Assembly (NCBI GenBank): GCA_963575645.1
Contig: OY754468.1
Coordinates: forward strand, 26,250,465 to 26,314,464
Length of the DNA: 64,000 nt
Direction: 5' to 3'
From: Xanthostigma xanthostigma
Taxonomy: Eukaryota > Arthropoda > Insecta > Raphidioptera > Raphidiidae
This document shows positions 21,945 to 62,600 of the stretch, one piece after another; positions within the stretch are counted from its first letter, which is position 1, and every line of letters starts with the position of its first letter. Position numbers and translations under genes: made by a program. The notes under the pieces were generated by a model. That model ran no database searches. It had not been told where the DNA came from and worked only from the letters and a program-made list of their open reading frames with translations.

Positions 21945-23335
21945 AATAATAATATATTTTTCGTTACAATTGACAAAAGTTTGTAACAAGTCATTTAAAA
22001 TTGTTTACACTATAAAATCACTTAGTTTGTAAAATTCTTTGTTTACCAGTTCATTCCCTAGAACTTCCTTGAAACGAGGCAGCGACTCAATATTCTTTAT
22101 TTTAGTTGGAAGAGTGTTGTATAACTTTAAACAGTTGTAAAGTGCACCTCCCTCAAAGGAAGTTAAGGAATGATCTGGCAAACGAAAATCATTTGCTCCC
22201 CTAGTGTTGAGATTATGGTTTAATTTGTAATTTTCAAAAACTGACGGATTTTTCCTGACAAACATAAGACATTCATAAATATACACACAGGGAAGCGTCA
22301 TAAGACCATGTCTCCTAAATACCCCTCTGCATGTATCTCGTGCTCTTAAACCGGCTAATGTCCTTACGGCATATTTTTGCAATTTAAAAATTATGTCAGT
22401 ATTTGCAGCTCCCCAAAAAATGATGCCATATCTCATCCTGGCTAGAAAGCTTCCAAAATACATTATACTTAATGTGTTAGTGTCTACTGAACGTGACATA
22501 TGCCTCAGAGAGTAGCAAATTTTGCTCAATTGCCTAGCCAAGTCATTAAGATGCGATGCCCATTTGATATGCTGATTTATTGTTAAGCCTAAGAATTTAG
22601 TATCTGCAGACAGTTCGAAGTTACAAGTTCCTAAAGTAATATTTTTTGAAATTTGGGCTGTCCCTTGTGACGTTTGAAAAACCATTATGGTAGTTTTACT
22701 TTTATTTAAAGATAATTTATTACTTTCAAACCAGTTTGTAGCATTTGTCAAGACTTTGGAGGCTGTTTGAGACAGTTCATGCAAATTTCTTCCCGTAATT
22801 AACAAATTTGTATCATCAGCATAGCAAATGGTCCTCGCATCAACAACTTGGCTAGGCAAGTCATTTATGTATAAAATAAAGAGCAATGGTCCTAAAACAC
22901 TGCCCTGTGGCACACCCATAGTAATTGTATTCAAATCTGAATTGACGTTACCATTATCGCTCATTAAGCTTACGTATTGTTGCCTATTAGTGAGATAGGA
23001 CCTAGTTCACTCCAGAACCTGTCCTCTGATTCCATATCTGGATAATTTACCAATTAATATATCGTGATCAACGCAATCAAAGGCTTTCGATAGATCAAGG
23101 AAGATCCCCATAGAGATCTCGCGTTTCTCAAAAGTTTTTAATGCATGCGTCACAAAATCAAAGATCGCAGTATTAGTGGAACGTGCTTTCATAAAGCCAT
23201 GTTGACTATTTGATATAGTGTTATTTTTATTTAAAAATGATTCTATACGATTATACATAATGTATTCAAAAATTTTTGAGAAAGCTGATAGCAAGCTTAT
23301 CGGCCGGTAATTTGTTACATTGTAGGTACTATAGC
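21945..23335 (-). mobile_element. Jockey-like LINE, 5'-truncated
   Basis: On the minus strand a reverse transcriptase frame runs from ~23335 to 22005, followed by a ~45-bp 3' UTR and a short (ATT)n tail near 21955-21940. The N-terminal endonuclease (APE) domain is absent, so the copy is truncated at its 5' side. A TIR element (23382-23662) lies just upstream. Confidence 0.85.
22005..23335 (-). pseudogene. LINE reverse transcriptase with one nonsense codon
   Basis: RT motifs appear in order: NYRPISLLSAFSKIFEYIMYNR (RT0/1 area), GIFLDLSKAFDCVDHD (motif A, metal-binding Asp), [21 protein letters not shown] (motif B), CYADDTNLL (catalytic YADD, motif C), then a thumb/connection region with [11 protein letters not shown] and [10 protein letters not shown]. 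The frame is continuous except for one in-frame TGA at 23007-23009 between GIRGQVLE and [14 protein letters not shown]; relatives usually have Trp there, so a single G-to-A change explains it. The enzyme would copy element RNA at a nicked target. With the stop and the missing endonuclease domain it is inactive. The best fit is the Jockey group of non-LTR elements; the exact clade is not settled. Confidence 0.85.
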
Positions 23336-27852: not shown

Positions 27853-28375
27853 CATCATTCGAACTTTATTTGGGTGCTGTGGAGGTTCACCCGCCTCTCC
27901 TCCCCAACCCACCGTTACATACATACTTATACTTTCGGATCTGTGATACCATAATTGAATTTCACGTTTTTCGGTACGAGTAAATGTAATGCATTGTTAA
28001 TAAATTAAATGAATCGTTAAACTCTTTCGTCGAAATCTTCATCGGCTGCCTTTTAATTATATTTGTATTTTTGTAAAATTCTAATGTACTTATGCATGCT
28101 TATTTATTGTCTCTAGTCCAGAGCTCGACGCCCTCCCGAAATGAATTCCTGGCTACGACCTTGACTAGAGTATTCAGTCAAAAATAAAATTAGTCCTTAG
28201 ACCGAAACATCGAATTATAGTACACAATTGGAAAGTTTCGGTGAACAAATTCGTCGTCTCCAAATTAATGCGGGAATATAGTTAAATGAGTGGACTATAG
28301 TTTTTGGAATTTGTTTAAAAAATGATAAAAAGATAATAATGATTAAAATTAATGAAATATAAGTACAGTGGAAAT
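27853..28375. other. Non-coding DNA
   Basis: AT-rich with no recognisable feature. Confidence 0.45.
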
Positions 28376-28616
28376 TCTGTATAGCAAACTTCTATTTGAC
28401 GAAGAATTCTTTAAAACATAGAAATGCTAAGGTTTGTTTGGTTTACATTGTTACATATTAAGATGAAGGAAGGTTTTGGTTGAGGATCATAAAATAAGCT
28501 TTACCAGTGTTTCGCTAGTGGCCAACGTTTCGAAAAATTTATTTTCATCTTCAGGGCCTCAAGCTGGTCAAGTGGTGGTAAATTGTTCTAACAGTATTAC
28601 ATGATCATAATTATTA

Positions 28617-29304
28617 TCTAATATATAAAATTCTCGTGTCACAGTTTTCGAAGTCATACTCCTCCGAAACGGCTTGACGGATTTTGATGAAATTTTTTGT
28701 GCTTATCCGGTATCTATGAGAATCGGCCAACATCTATTTTTCATCCCCCTAAATGTTAGGGGTAGTCCACCCTTAAATTTTTTTCTTCCTTTGATTATAA
28801 TTATTATTAAAGACACGAATTTTTTTTTAAATTCGTATCCATGGTTTTAAAATATAAACAGCCTTATGTATGATTTGAAAAAATTCTGTCAAAAATTAAA
28901 AAAAACATTGATTTATATACTTTTAACATTTTTCATCATTAAATAATTTTCAAGTGATTTTATAACCTCAAAAGTACTCAACACGTGACACGAGCTTCCA
29001 ATAACAACGGATTTTGTGTTGTAAGTATACTTTTTTTTATTCATATCGAAAATGTTGTTGATCTTATAAAAATTGGTCGATAATTTATTTATTGAAGAGT
29101 ACTAATCAGACGTTAATCAAATATTCAAATATCCCCATTCGTTCTTTTGCACCGGGCACGACGGCGCAGCCGGAGTGTTCGACATACACACATATACGTC
29201 CATGTATATTTTAAAATAAATAAAATAGATAGATAGATGTTCCAATTATATAGATATATATATATAATACTGTTAGGCGGTACGAAGTTCGCCGGGTCCG
29301 CTAG
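28617..29304 (+). mobile_element. Non-autonomous Helitron, first of a head-to-tail pair
   Basis: It begins TCTAATATATAAAATTCTCG directly after A (28616) and ends CTAG at 29301-29304, with a 3' hairpin GGCG/CGCC about 8 bp before the end. It has no Rep/helicase. It shares its first ~140 bp and a ~110-bp block near the 3' end (ccccattcgttcttttgcac...) with the second copy; the last ~50 bp differ. Confidence 0.75.
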
Positions 29305-29917
29305 TCTAATATATAAAATTCTCGTGTCACAGTTTTCGTTGCCATACTCCTCCGAAACGGCTTGACCGATTTTGATGAAATTTTTTGTGCTTATCCGGTA
29401 TCTATGAGAATCGGCCAACATCTATTTTTCATCCCCCTAAATGTTAGGGGTAGTCCACCCCTAATTTTTTTTTTTTATTTTTTAGACAAAATTTTTAATT
29501 TCTATTTTTTTATGATACAACATACAAAAATACATACAATCCTCAATTTTCACCCTTCTACGATCAACCCTTATTTTTTAATAGCCATTTTAGTAATTTA
29601 ATCATTTTTCCTCTCCGGTCGAAAACTGATCAATCGTCATTTAATTAGTTATCCCCGCCAGATGTCTACAGGTGTCACTTCGCCAACATCTATTTTTCAT
29701 CCCCCTAAATGTTAGGGGTAGTCCACCCCTAAATTTTTTTTCTCCCTTCCCCATTCGTTCTTTTGCACCGGGCACGACGGCGCAGCCGGAGTGCTCGACA
29801 TACACACATATACGTCTATGTATATTTTAAAATAAATAAAATAGATAGATAGATGTTCCAATTAAATTGTTTTATTATTTCACTTTATACGTAGCGAAGC
29901 ACGTACAGGGCCGCTAG
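29305..29917 (+). mobile_element. Non-autonomous Helitron, second of a head-to-tail pair
   Basis: It starts with TCTAATATATAAAATTCTCG immediately after the CTAG of the first copy and ends CTAG at 29914-29917, followed by T. The 3' hairpin TACGT/ACGTA (29888-29906 area) is perfect. The segment gccaacatctatttttcatc and its flank occur twice inside (29411 and 29682). The reading frames here are incidental. Confidence 0.75.
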
Positions 29918-30819
29918 TGAGTTAATATAATTTTAAACATATCTTATTATAATTAAAAAATTTATTCAATTTTTATAAAATTGTCACGCGGTGAAAAAAT
30001 TAAAATATTTATCTAAGAATTTAATATAACCAAAGAAAGTTCTCAAATTTGGTTATACTAAATTCTTAGATAAATATTTTAATTTTTTCACCGCGTGACA
30101 ATTTTATGAAAATTGAATAATTTTTTTAATTATTTTTTTATAATAAGATATGTTTAAAATTATATTAACTCATAATAATTATGATCATGTATACTGTTAA
30201 AACAATTTACCACCACTTAACCAGCTTGAGGCCCTGATGATGAAAATAAATTTTTCGAAACGTTGGCCACTAGCGAAACACTGGTAAAGCTTATTTATGA
30301 TCCTCAACCAAAACCTTCCTTCATCTTAATATTCTATTGGATCAACACTACTTTATACTGAAGACATTGTTACATATATTGAAACACTCTATATAGCGCA
30401 ACAACTACTCTCAATAGCGAAACAATACGTCATTATTTAGACCCCAACAATGAGATTCTTAGAAATGTGTTCATTTGTTTGTTGTAATTATTAGAAAAAA
30501 ATATTTTTATTTAACGAAGATGATCCCACTATATGATATATGGCAATTGATATGAATAAAATACAACGAAAGATACAATATTAAAACATTGGAATAGGTA
30601 CTAGAAAACGACAAAGTTAACAGATTATAATTTTGTTATACTTATACATTTTTTTCACTTAATTTAGTTGAAATTAAAACCACTTATTCGTACAAATATA
30701 TTGTTTTCTTTTACTCAACCCGTTTAACGAAAACTATTTATAACACAACAAAATATCCGGTCCTTTCAATTTTGCTATATAGAGCTTACACTGCGGTTAG
30801 ATAGGTAATTATAAAATAA

Positions 30820-31396
30820 CTAGCCGCTACCCGCGGCTACGCCCGCGATTGAGATGGAAATCGACTTTTGACATGCATATCAGGGGTTGAGGTATTGCAC
30901 ATATTTTGACAAACAATTTTCTTATTTTTCGTAAAAAATTTTTATTTTTTTTTAATAAAAAGTATCCTATGTTACTTCTAATACCTTCAAGAGTGTATGT
31001 GCAAAGTTTCATGATGATCGGTTAAGTAGTTTTTGCGTGAAAGCGTAACAAACAAACTTTCATTCGCATTTATAATATTTCGTTTTCATAAAATTTGTAA
31101 GTCCGGTCCTGTCGGGCCGATTTTAATGAAATTTTAATAGCACATTTTAATCATTACTAAAGGGTTAAATTTCAATTTTGAAACGATTCGGAGAAATTTT
31201 TCGGTATTTTTGGGCCCAAAAAATGTTTTCAACCCTTTCTTATTTTTCGTAAAAAATTTTTATTTTTTTTTAATAAAAAGTATCCTATGTTACTTCTAAT
31301 ACCTTCAAGAGTGTATGTGCAAAGTTTCATGATGATCGGTTAAGTAGTTTTTGCGTGAAAGCGTAACAAACAAACTTACATTCGCATTTATAATAT

Positions 31397-31405
<9 letters not shown>
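30820..31405 (-). mobile_element. Helitron-like element with an internal direct duplication
   Basis: The minus-strand 3' end is the GC-rich hairpin CGCGGGCGTAGCCGCGGG...CTAG, with CTAG at 30823-30820 followed by T. The 5' side has the typical tataaatgcgaatg...gtttgtttgttacgc phrase. About 165 bp (30914-31078) are repeated almost identically at 31236-31405, separated by unrelated sequence, so either two 5' ends or a tandem copy is present. The outer 5' end runs into an ATA microsatellite. Confidence 0.6.
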
Positions 31406-31428: not shown

Positions 31429-32276
31429 ATAATATGATTGTGATACAAGCACACTAAATCATAAACATGCCCGTCTCACATAATGTCACCACACTCGTGT
31501 TCCCGTAATGTCTTGTTCATCGTCCAGGCACTGCGAACCTTAATTAAACCCAGTACCCTTGAAACTACCTGATTTCAATTTGATTCGATTGCTTGATCGA
31601 TTGGAAATAAGCAAACCTATTGAACTGTCCAATTGTGCAGACCAAAATGATACTCAAACAGTGGATCACACCATCTGACTGGATGAATGGATGAACGTCG
31701 GTGATTTTAAAACTGCTCCTATTTGTACCAGCAGTGTGTAATATTCTTCAAAATTTTGATCATCATTGACACGTTTCAGTGCGTAATGCGAAAAACTTGA
31801 TCAGTTTTCAAAAAGCGATACATATTTAATAAACTGAGTTGTGGTATATTCGTCATTCGGAGTGCGAACTAAATCGAATGTAGTTAAAGTAACGTGTCTA
31901 TATGAAAACGACTACAGCGTAGAAATATCTGAACTAATAGCTTTGAGCAAATTCTACCTGATGTCGCTACATGGTACGAAAACAGTTTTTTTGACAAAAC
32001 ACAATCATTTTGTACAAAATATTTACAAATAATATATATAAAAACCTTCCTCGTTTATCGCCATTTCTATTAGTGAAAACCGTATGAAAGTCCGTTCGGT
32101 AGTTTTTGAGTTTATCGCGTTCAGACAGACAGACGCGGCGAAGGGACTTTGTTTTAAACATATAGATTGATTTAGGATTATCGTATATACCTATAAATAA
32201 ATCGTAACTTTCATAAATTATAGTAGTTTCAGTTGTTGGTAGTATAGTTTTGTTCCAAATAATATGTTGCAGGAAG

Positions 32277-32378
32277 TTAATTTTGGTTGAGAAACAATAT
32301 AGAATAAAAGCTTTACTAGAGTATCGCTTGCGATACTCTGGTAAAGCTTCTTTATTCTTATTCCTCAACCAAAATAAA
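32277..32378. repeat. Hairpin related to the large foldback family
   Basis: Arms gttaattttggttgag and ctcaaccaaaataaac enclose aataaaagcttta / gtaaagcttctttatt and agagtatcgc / gcgatactct, giving an almost perfect ~100-bp hairpin. The order ggttgag...aagctttac resembles the arms at 28470-28510 and 37480-37530, so it is a distant subfamily. Confidence 0.65.
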
Positions 32379-32784
32379 CTACCTGAAAGTAGTTTCAGTA
32401 TTTATTCTTCGATTCTCAATTTGTAACTTTCAGCTCCACAAGCCAATTGATATGTTTATTTTTCGCTTTTAGCTCGAAAAAGTACAGATCAACTGATATT
32501 TTCTTAAAAATGAAAATAAAATATGAAAGTAATAATAATTTGGGAAATATATTACAAAAATTTGGCAAGTTAAAGATGCTGGCAGAAGTTTTAAAAAAAG
32601 ATAAGAAAATAAATAAAACAACTGATGCGTCTTTTTTCTCTTATCTTTTTTATGAATACGTAAACTTTTTAATAGTATAATACTCGTACAGTAGATTCGC
32701 ATTAAGTCAGTGCGTACAAGGTTTAGTTTAGACGGAGACGGGAGAAGCCCATCGTCATATTTCCTATATGCATCGAACGGATTT

Positions 32785-37330: not shown

Positions 37331-37344
37331 CATAAAATTAATTC

Positions 37345-37531
37345 AGCATAAAGTAGTATTGATCCAATAGAACGTTACGATGAAGGAAGGTTTTAGCTAG
37401 TGGCCAACGTTTCGAAAAAAATATTTTCATCTTCAGGGCCTCAGATGAAAATAAATTTTTCGAAACGTTGACCACTAGCGAAACATTGGTAAAGCTTATT
37501 TATTTATGATCCTCAACGAAAACCTTCCTTC
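37345..37531. mobile_element. Compact member of the large foldback family with 14-bp target duplication
   Basis: Flanks cataaaattaattc (37331-37344) and cataaaattcattc (37532-37545) match at 13 of 14 positions. The order tattgatccaatag, gatgaaggaaggtttt, gctagtggccaacgtttcg, tcttcagggcctc is the same as in 28459-30363, but the arms meet almost directly at ~37441. The CTGAAGA...GAAAC core is present in the left arm. The extension with tattgatccaatag is here on the left side, so orientation is opposite to the large copy. Confidence 0.7.
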
Positions 37532-37545
37532 ATCATAAAATTCAT

Positions 37546-38272
37546 TCTTAGTGGGTGCCTATCGTTGAGAAAGGAGTAACTAAACTAAATAATGGGAAAT
37601 AATCATGTTTCGTCTCAATCGCGTGCGAAGCCGCGGGGAACGGCTAGTCAGAAGTAATTTTAATAATAAAAGAAAAACAAATGCGAGATGTTCGTAGACA
37701 CGCAGTATATTCATAAAATGAAAGACAATATACATGAGAAACAGATACAAATTGCATTCCTATCTGTCAGACCAGATCTATTGTTGTAACAATAAAAATA
37801 TTGACAGAACCAATATAGGCCCGATTTAATTTTTTTTCACGAAAGGTTGATATATTTTTCAATTTGTGGATATATACATTGATTGTCGGAACGGTTTCAA
37901 ATAATGGGACGAGGAAGCATTTTTTTATGGAAAGTTATCTGTTGGGTTACTGATCAACTGAGATTTGTACCAATAAATATGTACGTTTTTGCCAGTATAT
38001 ACTACAATCACTGGCGAAATTATAGACGAACTTCAACTTAGGAGTCTTCATTGAAATCTGAAAGTTGAATTTATTTTAAAATTGTAATTGAGTATTAGAA
38101 AATGACTGGCTTGATATAGATAAGTTATCTAACGGATTACCATTGAATAACAGCGACGAAGTTTAAGAAGTTTCCATTAGTACCAAGTTTATGTATCTAA
38201 TTTTCATTAAATGTGAATTACATGTGTTTCAAACATATTTGTGCCAGCCCTGTATAGTGCATATACCAGGGC
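37546..38272. other. Non-coding DNA with a Helitron 3' end
   Basis: At 37618-37647, tcgcgtgcgaagccgcgggg...CTAG followed by T matches the GC hairpin and terminus of the Helitron at 30820 (here on the + strand). Its 5' end is not identified. The rest is AT-rich. Confidence 0.4.
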
Positions 38273-59186: not shown

Positions 59187-59223
59187 GCTATAAATCTTAA
59201 TGATGTTATTTTTCGTGTTACAG

Positions 59224-59610
59224 CGCCATGAAGATTCTTCTATCAAAACTTCCTCGTCCTTGGATTGTGGACGAGAAGAAGGACGACGGTTACACCGCCT
59301 TGCACCTGGCCGCCTTAAACAACCACGTCGAAGTGGCTGAGCAATTGGTGCACAACGGACACGCCGACATGGATCTTCAGAACGTCAACTTGCAAACGGC
59401 ACTTCATCTGGCCGTCGAACGTCAACATACCCAAATCGTGCGTCTTCTGGTTCGCGAGAAAGCCAACCTCAATATAGCCGACAAAGATGGTGACACGCCG
59501 CTTCACGAAGCTTTACGACATCACACACTATCGCAGTTGCGTCAGTTGCAAGATGTCCAGGATGTTGGAAAGCTACTGATGGGTCTTGGTGGCCAAGGAG
59601 CTGATAAAAG
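59224..59610 (+). CDS. mib1: mib1 exon: ankyrin repeats
   Basis: The acceptor is tttttcgtgttacag, just before 59224; the first base completes a codon from the upstream exon, then [10 protein letters not shown]. Ankyrin units follow: [60 protein letters not shown]. The donor is AAAAG|gtattt at 59611, leaving two bases of an Arg codon. Base composition is GC-rich compared with all flanking DNA. The ATG at 59228 is an internal Met, not a start. Confidence 0.93.
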
Positions 59611-62600
59611 GTATTTAAGTAATTCATTTCAGCTTCATCCTCAAGTGTACGAATAAATATGTCTAATTGAGGTATGCTTTTGTTTAGATTAGATTAGATT
59701 TATTAGCTTCTCTCAAACATTAAAAAAAGTGATTTACATCGTACAAGCATTTTAAAGTTAAAAATAATTTAAGAAAATAACACCAGAACACTGTGGAGTA
59801 GATTTTAAAAAACATATTCACAATGTATCTATGACTATTTTACTTAACATCCATCAGTAACTTATATAAATACACACCTGGTACAATTAAAAATGTTATT
59901 ATCTATAAAAATATTTCTACATGATGTATCCAGGAAGAAAATAATTGCTATTATATTATTCATCTGTGAATCTTAAGTTACCAGAACCGATTTTGGGAAG
60001 TAAATTTATACCAGTAGTGAAAAAAAAAAGATTTTTTCTTACATAATATGGTCGTCATCTGGCAAATATTGTCTAATTGGATGTTGAAGAAATACAACGT
60101 TCAAGATATTTAAAAAATTAATCCTGTATCAAATTTCATTAGAATACTTAATGTGGCAAAGGTGCTAATTTTTTCATGCTTTTGTTAATATCTTACACAT
60201 CATATTCGATAAGAAGATTCCTAATCAAATGTACAATGATGATATGAATAAAATTTTCATCCTCTAGGTCATCGGCAAGCATAGCATGTTTCCTAGCAGG
60301 AAACGGTGCCGACTTGACCGTAAAAAACAAGAAAGGTCAAACGCCTTTAGATCTGTGCCCCGATCCGAACTTGTGCAAGACTCTTACCAAGTGTTACAAC
60401 GACAAGAAATCCGTCGATATGGAAACGTCAGCACAAGCTGCTGAAGCTGCAGCTACTCTGACACTTGAAGAGTGTCTCGTTTGCTCTGACGCTAAACGGG
60501 ATACACTGTTCCAGCCCTGTTCTCATGTAGCCTGCTGTTCGGCTTGCGCCCACAGAGTCAAGAAATGCCTCGTGTGTCGGGAAGCTGTCACAGCCAGAAT
60601 CAAGGTATGAATAAAGATGCAAGATTTATTACTTGCACAGCTATTTACAGATTATAAGACCGCTCGTGGTTAACATTAATTATATTTTATGGTTGGATTT
60701 GAGATTCGTCAGAATAGCAGAAATGCCGTTATTTATATTTCAATTCCTGCTTTATTACAAACTTCCGGTTTCGCCTTCCAGGCTCTTATCTAAGAATTTT
60801 TGGAAATATGGACGAGTTTTTTGTTATCTATTGCAAACCCTTATTACTGATAAAGTTGTTGAAAGTATTAATTGGACTTTCAGTTTATTATTAACAATAA
60901 GTATTAATTGTCAGTTTCCTAAGTCAAGCCTCTGTGACTCACCAGAGCAGAAAAGTTTGACGTCGCCTGCCATGAAAAATGAGCTGGCGAATGGCAATTA
61001 ATAAAATATATATGTAGTAATTTAATTTTTAGTTAGAAATGCTAAAATCATTGATTCGCTATAATTAGATAAATTGGATGGATTTTTGCAAAGAAAATAT
61101 CGAAAGTAAAAATTAACGTAAAAACATTATCTTGAAATGTTTAGGTGCACCTTCGGTGTAATAGATGTAGCGCCTATATACACGCACTCGCTTTATAATA
61201 TGTTAATATTCTATTGCACATGTACAGCAGGAAATGATGAATGAATTTGATTTTTATTACTTTTACTTCCAAGAATTCAAAATAACATAGTTTGTTACAT
61301 ATATTATTGAAGTTAACATGTTTTTTTTTCTAAAACCTCTCTGTTTCGGTTCCCGGAGAGAAAAAAAAAATCTCGCTTCTTTATGTTCTGCCCCACGCCC
61401 TATCAATGGTGTAGATATGAGGTGTAAAAGGGGTAATTACCCTCCCAGGATCATAATAATAAAAAATAAAAATTATAAATACTTTTTGAAAAGGAATTTG
61501 TAAATTTAGTTTGGGAATTGATATTTTGCTTGACACCTTCCTTCGTGAGTATTATATTGTGTGATATTAATAAAACTTAAAAAATAATGATAATAACAAA
61601 CCGAAACGTAGTTTTTGTTTTTTGTGATTTAATGTGAATTTCTTTAGATTATTGGGTGCTACGTATAGTCTGATGAATGAATGATTTTTATTAAAATTTC
61701 AGCATGTTAGATCAAAAATTTAAAAACTGTTTCGGGCAAAACTTACGTATTTTGATGTAAGGAATCCGAATCTGCAATAAAATATAAGGATTCCCATTTC
61801 ACTTTTTTAAGTTGCCCCCTTCCTCCTCCCAGGTGATGGGGTGGGAGTGCCAAATTTATTACCATTCAAAAGCTTTCCAAAAATTATCAGACACGCATTT
61901 GTTCTTTTCCTCTGTATTAATGAACTTTTATAAATATTAGGGAGGTATGGGTGATCTAGGACACCGATATATGTGTAGATTTTTTTACATATTCATTTGA
62001 TTTCAACACTTCATCACCTGTCAATACAAGTTTTTTAAGTTTATTTTTTTTTTCAGATTGAAGAATGTCTAGTGTGCTCAGACAAAAAAGCATCGATGCT
62101 ATTTAAGCCTTGCGGTCACATGGTAGCTTGCGATAGCTGCTCTCAGATCATGAAGAAATGTGTCCAGTGTCGGGTGCAAATAGATTTGATGGTCCCATTA
62201 ACTGTGTGTAGCGGGGGGACAGGAACTGTATCCGAAGTCACAGCTGATATTCCTGCTGAAGAAGAACAGGCAGCGGCGGTGGCTTCGACATCAAATCTTG
62301 AACCGCAGCACGTCGCTTCTGGAATAACCGTTAGTAATGCAATGCTGCAACCGCAAGGGCCTGTTATGAATAACGGAAGCCGTGATACCAACACTGACAT
62401 TCAGAAATTACAGCAGCAATTACAAGATATTAAAGAACAGGTAAATTTCATTTTTAAGAGTACAGTTACAAAAAAATTTACAATTAAATTCATATGCTTC
62501 ATGACTGGTTTTATAATTTAATACTAAATACTACTTATAGTTAGAATGACGGTGACAGAAATGGTCCAGGAGCACTTGGTGGCAAAAACGCTCTCTTTCG

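Follow-up and report, generated by a model that had tools for sequence, protein, structure and literature searches.

Architecture of the locus

The stretch of DNA analysed here (the window) comprises 64,000 nucleotides of the Xanthostigma xanthostigma genome, corresponding to C5:26250465-26314464, and the genome searched comprises 623 Mb in 28 contigs. Inspection of window positions 28366-30793 reveals a nest of three layers with borders exact to the base, where every layer is an ordinary mobile element of an already known type. A pogo-like outer element was entered by a Penelope-like element (PLE), whose left arm in turn was entered by Helitrons. A sequence-only reading of the locus had proposed this three-level nesting and its order, and both are borne out by the alignment of the PLE arms, by an empty PLE site at a second locus (L029) and by uninterrupted relatives of the PLE.

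The PLE is a foldback flanked by an exact 14-bp repeat, ACATTGTTACATAT, at 28445-28458 and 30364-30377 (both +), which is its target-site duplication, as first read, and which has a single homologous site in L029. Arm alignment resolves the element into an inverted, tailless pseudo-LTR in two pieces (outer part 28459-28616 and inner part beyond the Helitron insert 29918-30034, both on the - strand), the short centre or loop of the head-to-head palindrome (30035-30047) and a direct pseudo-LTR (30048-30330, +), the last also delimited by genome search. Comparison of arms and copies adds a 33-bp tail (30331-30363, +) present only on the direct arm. The foldback extent given earlier holds at the left border, but the right boundary lies at 30363, 33 bp outside the paired region, owing to the tail that a single arm carries.

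The left arm is interrupted between A28616 and T29918 by an insert of 1301 bp (28617-29917), as had been noted, at a canonical A|T Helitron site. When joined across 28616|29918 (28459-28616 plus 29918-30046), the left arm matches the reverse-complemented right arm with no break where its two pieces meet, and comparison of 28459-28616 plus 29918-30034 with 30048-30330 yields 267 matches and 6 mismatches, with 12 gap columns. The partner arm thus preserves the empty Helitron site, in agreement with the initial claim. A 40-base probe over the uninterrupted site, with up to 6 errors allowed, was found in 29 of 29 relatives; these had been obtained by a search with the intact right arm, and the probe test was therefore not blind. 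With the interrupted left arm as query, most long matches end at query 240-243 (window 28615-28618), several continue to 250-260 and some end earlier. Insert borders and family copies divide the insert into two non-autonomous TC...CTAG Helitrons, A (28617-29304, +, 688 bp) and B (29305-29917, +, 613 bp), which abut at 29304|29305 as CTAG-TC with no spacer, exactly as originally described.

The window holds three PLE copies. The second (37345-37533, -, exact ends placed by eye) has both arms, with the tail on the left arm and an imperfect 14-bp duplication at 37331-37344 and 37534-37547 (13/14, by eye). The third, a divergent foldback with ends placed by eye (32234-32387, -), likewise has its tail on the left arm and carries a 12-bp duplication, AGTAGTTTCAGT, at 32222-32233 and 32388-32399 (by eye). 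The 33-bp extra stretch flanks one arm in these two copies as well.

Several other features were observed in the window. Helitron-like 3' ends (hairpin plus CTAG) lie on opposite strands at 30821-30860 and 37605-37647, in the vicinity of the first two PLE copies, and a 162-bp direct duplication, 99% identical, occupies 30918-31079 and 31236-31397, 318 bp apart. A reverse transcriptase fragment at 22005-22964 (-; RVT_1, E 5.5e-15) probably derives from a LINE-type element, and frames with ankyrin repeats and RING-like parts at 59204-62521 (+) resemble, by eye, exons of a mind bomb-type gene.

The outer pogo-like element

The outer element spans 28366-30793 and amounts to about 0.5 kb once its inserts are removed. 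Its imperfect terminal inverted repeats, CAGTG..., lie at 28366-28391 (+) and 30768-30793 (-). The inverse ends reported earlier, CAGTGGAAATTC... and CAGTGTAAGCTC..., are indeed identical at 21 of 26 positions, but 9 of 300 shuffles score as well. Since the ends by themselves are weak, the case for the outer element is carried by the copy in L029, a locus retrieved as a PLE copy, and it is through this copy that the pogo-like outer layer of the sequence-only reading is upheld. This second copy exceeds the window copy in length, can be aligned along most of its extent and reads TA|GAGTGTAAACTC...GAGTTTACACTG|TA, that is to say TA|GAGTG...CACTG|TA, with the left end changed from C to G. In the window copy a TA stands to the left, at 28364-28365, and the right TA is not preserved. 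Where the window copy has the PLE and the duplicated 14 bp, L029 has a single uninterrupted ACCTTGTTACACATA, and its own PLE occupies a different position of the outer element. Three things are accordingly backed by the L029 copy: the outer element as such, TA as its target, and the empty site of the PLE.

Next to the longer L029 copy, the window element looks like a deletion derivative. The pogo-like label is drawn from the ends and the TA, and we take CAGTG ends with TA to be features of the pogo/Tigger family. Members of that family encode a DDE transposase with a CENP-B-type domain. A Pfam search of a 44-aa remnant in L029 gave no match, and no transposase was identified there.

Sequence features of the Penelope-like element

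The sequence-only reading rightly recognised inverted arms with a 14-bp duplication, but treated them as a generic foldback transposon, where pseudo-LTRs, tail and hammerhead-like motif point instead to a Penelope-type retroelement. Its interpretation is thus partly supported, and the identity of the foldback as a PLE was missed. Judged by its sequence, the foldback is a PLE of small size in which no gene was recognised. PLEs have pseudo-LTRs, often inverted, with a tail of 30-40 bp on one side, and make short target duplications of variable length at AT-rich sites. Both features are present here, with a tail of 33 bp.

A further feature is a motif, GGCC-CUGAUGA-stem II-GAAACGUU-GGCC, at 30230-30268 (+), which overlaps an ATG at 30240-30242; the inverted arm has its counterpart (CUGAAGA) at 28520-28558 (-). 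Across the family the motif reads GGCC-CUGANGA-AU-rich stem-CGAAACGUU-GGCC, and the strict core occurs in 33 of 42 aligned stretches (29 loci, some stretches truncated). This motif appears hammerhead-like and to share with PLEs the overlap with the start codon. The fold of one typed copy contains stems I and II (z = -1.8; 11 of 200 shuffles as good). Rfam returned no hammerhead match for the motif, which fits the minimal hammerhead variants of PLEs described in PMC7229834 without amounting to proof. By hand, the ATG at 30240 stands 25 nt before the predicted cleavage point and 91 and 124 nt from the two outer ends, and its frame in the window closes after 15 codons.

Inspection for a coding partner gave the following. 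A GIY-YIG search of the genome yielded 37 matches from the best 150 of 521 candidates scored, with frames of up to 804 aa. One of these loci, a 1.3-kb stretch (L090), was read: a motif of the same kind, CTGAAGATG-stem-CGAAA, stands 3' of the GIY-YIG frame in a different pseudo-LTR. The L090 frame is presumably a PLE gene, given its GIY-YIG part and the features that we associate with such genes. No coding PLE with exactly the same pseudo-LTR was found among the GIY-YIG matches, of which this one locus was read. Beside the 29 PLE copies there are several frames of at least 110 aa, none recognised by eye as a PLE protein. As a separate observation, C4:23143039-23148117 contains three GIY-YIG matches (frames of 804, 433 and 433 aa), distributed over both strands of some 5 kb, possibly an inverted array of coding PLEs.

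The PLE family across the genome

A genome search with the right arm including the tail produced 67 matches from the best 40 of 2,988 candidates. Outer ends fall at two discrete places, query 279-293 (around 284) and 309-331 (around 317), and those beyond about query 320 run into flank. Grouped by position, the matches form 40 loci, of which 26 are head-to-head pairs and 14 are single arms (9 tailed, 5 tailless); each locus among these matches is thus either head to head or single, and all 26 of the 26 pairs are head to head. Every classed pair (25/25) combines one tailed with one tailless arm. The tail sits on the longer arm in 22 pairs and on the shorter arm in 3, an exact value of 1/2300 by hand arithmetic for loci drawn with a query that contains the tail. 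The 26th pair is the window copy, left unclassed because its outer left arm was unmatched owing to the Helitron insert; by its sequence it likewise pairs a tailed arm with a tailless one.

A more sensitive rescan of 29 loci gave 21 one-of-each pairs, 6 singles, one tailed/tailed locus (L024) and one unclassed locus (L036), whose inverted piece ends at query 92. At L024:1309-1821, two tailed single-arm pieces point in opposite directions with about 130 bp between them; 10-bp repeats flank each, GAGGATATTT the main arm and AAATTATATT the inverted piece (the latter by eye). Because each piece has its own 10-bp repeat, L024 probably represents two separate single-arm insertions, and on a strict count it may stand as an exception.

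A near inverted arm was present in 22 of the 29 copies examined. Target duplications were found in 19 of these 22 (none for L011, L033 and L036), most commonly of 12 bp (11/19), and the duplication score reached at least 11 in 15 of 22 inverted copies versus 1 of 629 random placements. In single-arm copies the script finds a duplication in 3 of 7.

Origin of the head-to-head arrangement

How inverted Penelope copies originate is unsettled, and self-priming is one published reading (PMC3846280). We tentatively favour, at a little below even confidence, two-sided target-primed reverse transcription with a different start for each strand, by which the high-copy derivative studied here, in which no gene was recognised, would mainly insert and of which the foldback would be the standard product rather than a by-product. 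The PLE enzyme would cut the two strands of an AT-rich target at positions some 12 bp from each other, and each cut end would prime reverse transcription inside the element RNA. One strand would start at the distal start, giving the tailed arm, and the other about 33 nt upstream, giving the tailless arm; the two cDNAs would then be linked head to head, one arm being truncated in most cases. Under such priming the outer ends would be the starts of reverse transcription and the centre would be variable, and this pattern matches the copies described above, whose ends, duplications, orientation and pairing of one tailed with one tailless arm are matters of observation. The steps of two-sided priming and joining are what we infer from them.

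Published biochemistry bears on this proposal in both directions. In vitro, the enzyme from Anolis cuts both strands of the target and extends each of them (PMC11167929), which, taken with the one-tailed, one-tailless pattern, favours two-sided priming over snap-back synthesis. The same report gives no start-site difference between strands in vitro, which counts against a different start for each, and its available text does not state a two-sided origin of head-to-head PLEs. Formation by snap-back, or self-primed, synthesis, perhaps from a hairpin at the pseudo-LTR 5' end as for bdelloid Penelope, is a less probable reading that still deserves weight. A hairpin, TTTGAT-CAGT-ATCAAA, stands whole or in part near the centre of many copies (fold z = -1.5), and PMC3846280 takes palindromes at inverted junctions as self-priming. 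Self-priming gives no reason, however, why the second outer end should fall at the second start, as it does in all 25 classed pairs with L024 as one doubtful exception. It also counts against self-priming that inverted arms vary in length on the inside while the outer ends stay mostly fixed.

Two further identities for the foldback were weighed against that of a PLE. A metazoan retrozyme, a small non-coding hammerhead retroelement of a kind that forms circular RNA, would account for a small AT-rich unit with a hammerhead-like core and a high copy number, and would suit the failure to recognise by eye a PLE gene frame beside the 29 copies. According to PMC7229834, retrozymes occur as direct tandem repeats, whereas here single copies and tailed head-to-head copies are seen, the signature of a PLE, and we regard this identity as rather unlikely. 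A DNA transposon of Foldback or MITE type with long terminal inverted repeats is highly improbable: it would explain the long, near-perfect inverted arms, but not the asymmetric ends with the tail on one arm only, the arm length that differs between copies, the single-arm copies with duplications (L017, L018), a duplication length that varies around 12 bp or the conserved hammerhead-like core. The pattern of tailed and tailless arms is the most useful result of the present analysis, as it supplies a sharp prediction for any PLE-bearing genome and for the existing in vitro system.

The Helitron family and its insertion sites

Helitrons A and B have their first 171 bp in common (7 differences) together with 128 bp farther on, within the 3' part (6 differences), and their 3' ends differ. 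Relative dating by the divergence of A from B (13/299) versus that of the PLE arms (6/273) was dropped, as the difference is not significant (p = 0.17). The Helitron features of a 5' TC, a 3' CTAG and insertion between A and T without duplication are all present, with 740 exact 5' ends in the genome against 0 for the control, a count of ends standing after A only; a few borders deviate, such as that of L085 with T before TC. Predicted folds near the 3' ends are weak (-9.0 kcal/mol for A and -6.8 kcal/mol for B, uncontrolled). A search of viral contigs with the Helitron 5' end gave 0 matches.

The genome search with the whole insert returned 69 matches from the best 40 of 2,770 candidates scored. 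In a sample of 36 Helitron units from the matches with the highest scores, loci differ by a median of 2 in about 688 bases, so that the description "very young" holds only for the copies sampled. A is nearly identical to these sampled relatives, and the Helitron insertion thus looks recent. As a side observation, three A copies (L062, L063 and L064, at C12:16115048, 16125297 and 16135558) are spaced by about 10.25 kb and have identical nearest flanks (about 20 bases on each side), probably a tandem segmental repeat carrying a Helitron insertion.

A preference of the Helitrons for palindromes was considered and rejected. In a first set, 9 of 18 insertion sites split an inverted repeat of at least 50 bits, versus 28 of 564 control A|T sites, a comparison whose p value is optimistic because the controls share 47 loci; the set left out loci with unresolved borders (e.g. 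L051, L055, L069, L073) as well as L063 and L064, which are repeats. Among the single A copies of a second set the count was 0 of 15, and both sets pooled give 9 of 33. The sites that split inverted repeats are L042, L046, L047, L048, L059, L061, L065, L067 and the window, nearly at the centre in L047 and L059.

Origin of the Helitron tandem

The sequence-only reading had suggested that other CTAG-TC tandem junctions of this family be sought, and the genome contains 42 exact junctions of the form GCTAG-TCTAATATATAAAATTCTCGTG, with 0 for the reversed-pattern control. Inspected tandem loci comprise A-A, A-A2, A-A-A2, A-B, Bs-A, Bs-B and B-like pairs, and in C7 five A units abut, the last one short by one base. 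Outer borders of most tandem loci are A|TC on the 5' side and CTAG|T on the 3' side. Exceptions are L050 and L069, which lack the final G at a junction or end, and L051, L055 and L058/L073, whose 5' end was not matched exactly. The formation of tandem Helitrons thus recurs in this genome, as has been published for bat and Bombyx.

That reading had offered both rolling-circle read-through and insertion at a Helitron end as the origin of the A-B tandem. Chance abutments are expected about 0.03 times (2,770 copies and 70 million AT sites, a rough figure in which the candidate count serves as copy number). With 42 junctions found, formation during rolling-circle transposition is preferred unless insertion is targeted, and the second of the two origins loses ground. 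Rolling-circle copying would run past the 3' terminator of A and stop at that of B, or a circular or concatemeric A-B intermediate would be used; the tandem would then enter the A|T site in the left arm of the PLE as one unit. Two separate insertions would require B to arrive first and A to follow exactly at its 5' end, the host A and the first T of B recreating A|T, with A as the second arrival because only the 5' end of B (A|TC) recreates an AT target. The borders permit such an order, A and B are different subfamilies (13/299 differences in their common parts) and heterotypic neighbours occur elsewhere (A-A2, Bs-A). We nevertheless consider it quite unlikely, as the excess of exact junctions over expectation would demand strong targeting to Helitron 5' ends, and as five A units abut in C7. 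Tandem Helitron arrays in Myotis and Bombyx have been ascribed to terminator bypass, with distantly related Helitrons adjoining (PMC4067079), and exact CTAG-TC junctions occur in circles of Helraiser and bat Helitrons (PMC4778049).

An identical A-B dimer was not seen at a second locus; L040 has A followed by B with a different 3' end. A common donor for the window A-B dimer and the Bs-A dimer of L072 was considered on account of a shared variant at 28819 and rejected: the variant occurs in 5 of 69 Helitron units (some loci overlap), and it proves nothing on a common donor since three other loci carry it. B-type Helitrons in L074 and L072 either end in a hybrid 3' sequence or show a deletion bounded by internal repeats of 67 bp (Bs, 345 bp), which suggests that new Helitron ends and sizes arise within tandems. 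The 42 junctions set against 740 5' ends after A constitute a base-exact tandem count for a family with nearly identical best-matching copies, useful for the rate at which rolling-circle termination fails.

Taken together, the locus is very probably explained by a pogo-like derivative that received a head-to-head PLE, which in turn received a pre-formed Helitron A-B tandem.

Comparison with known systems

The outer element resembles pogo/Tigger-type DNA transposons in its CAGTG ends and, in the L029 copy, its TA duplication, and differs from them in being only a remnant. The Helitrons are like Helraiser and bat Helitrons in their TC...CTAG ends, A|T target, head-to-tail CTAG-TC junctions, tandem arrays and new 3' ends (PMC4778049, PMC4067079). 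Unlike those described in PMC4778049, the elements here are short and non-autonomous and form heterotypic dimers in both orders.

For the PLE, the closest structural parallel is found in Pen2a_Av and its relatives in Adineta vaga, as described in PMC3846280, where self-priming is favoured. These elements also have an inverted pseudo-LTR on the 5' side and a palindrome at the junction, and one of the inverted pseudo-LTRs optionally bears a tail, of 31 bp there and 33 bp here. Their duplications measure 8-10 bp, in contrast to mostly 12 bp here, and no reverse transcriptase or GIY-YIG frame was recognised beside the 29 copies studied here. The word "hammerhead" is absent from the available text of PMC3846280, whereas a hammerhead-like motif is present in our copies.

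The Poseidon PLE of Anolis carolinensis (PAc, PMC11167929) also has a hammerhead motif that overlaps the start codon, with cleavage 26 nt from the start versus 25 nt as predicted here. Reverse transcription of PAc starts 111-118 bp into the frame, compared with outer ends at 91 and 124 nt from the ATG here, and its tail spans the interval from one start to another, as we propose here; the target is AT-rich in both systems. PAc is coding, whereas the frame of the PLE here is closed and most of its copies stand head to head. Metazoan retrozymes, according to PMC7229834, are likewise short, AT-rich and gene-less, with a type I hammerhead-like motif and a high copy number; they form direct tandem repeats where the PLE copies here form inverted pairs with a tail, and PLEs are named in that report as the likely movers of retrozymes.
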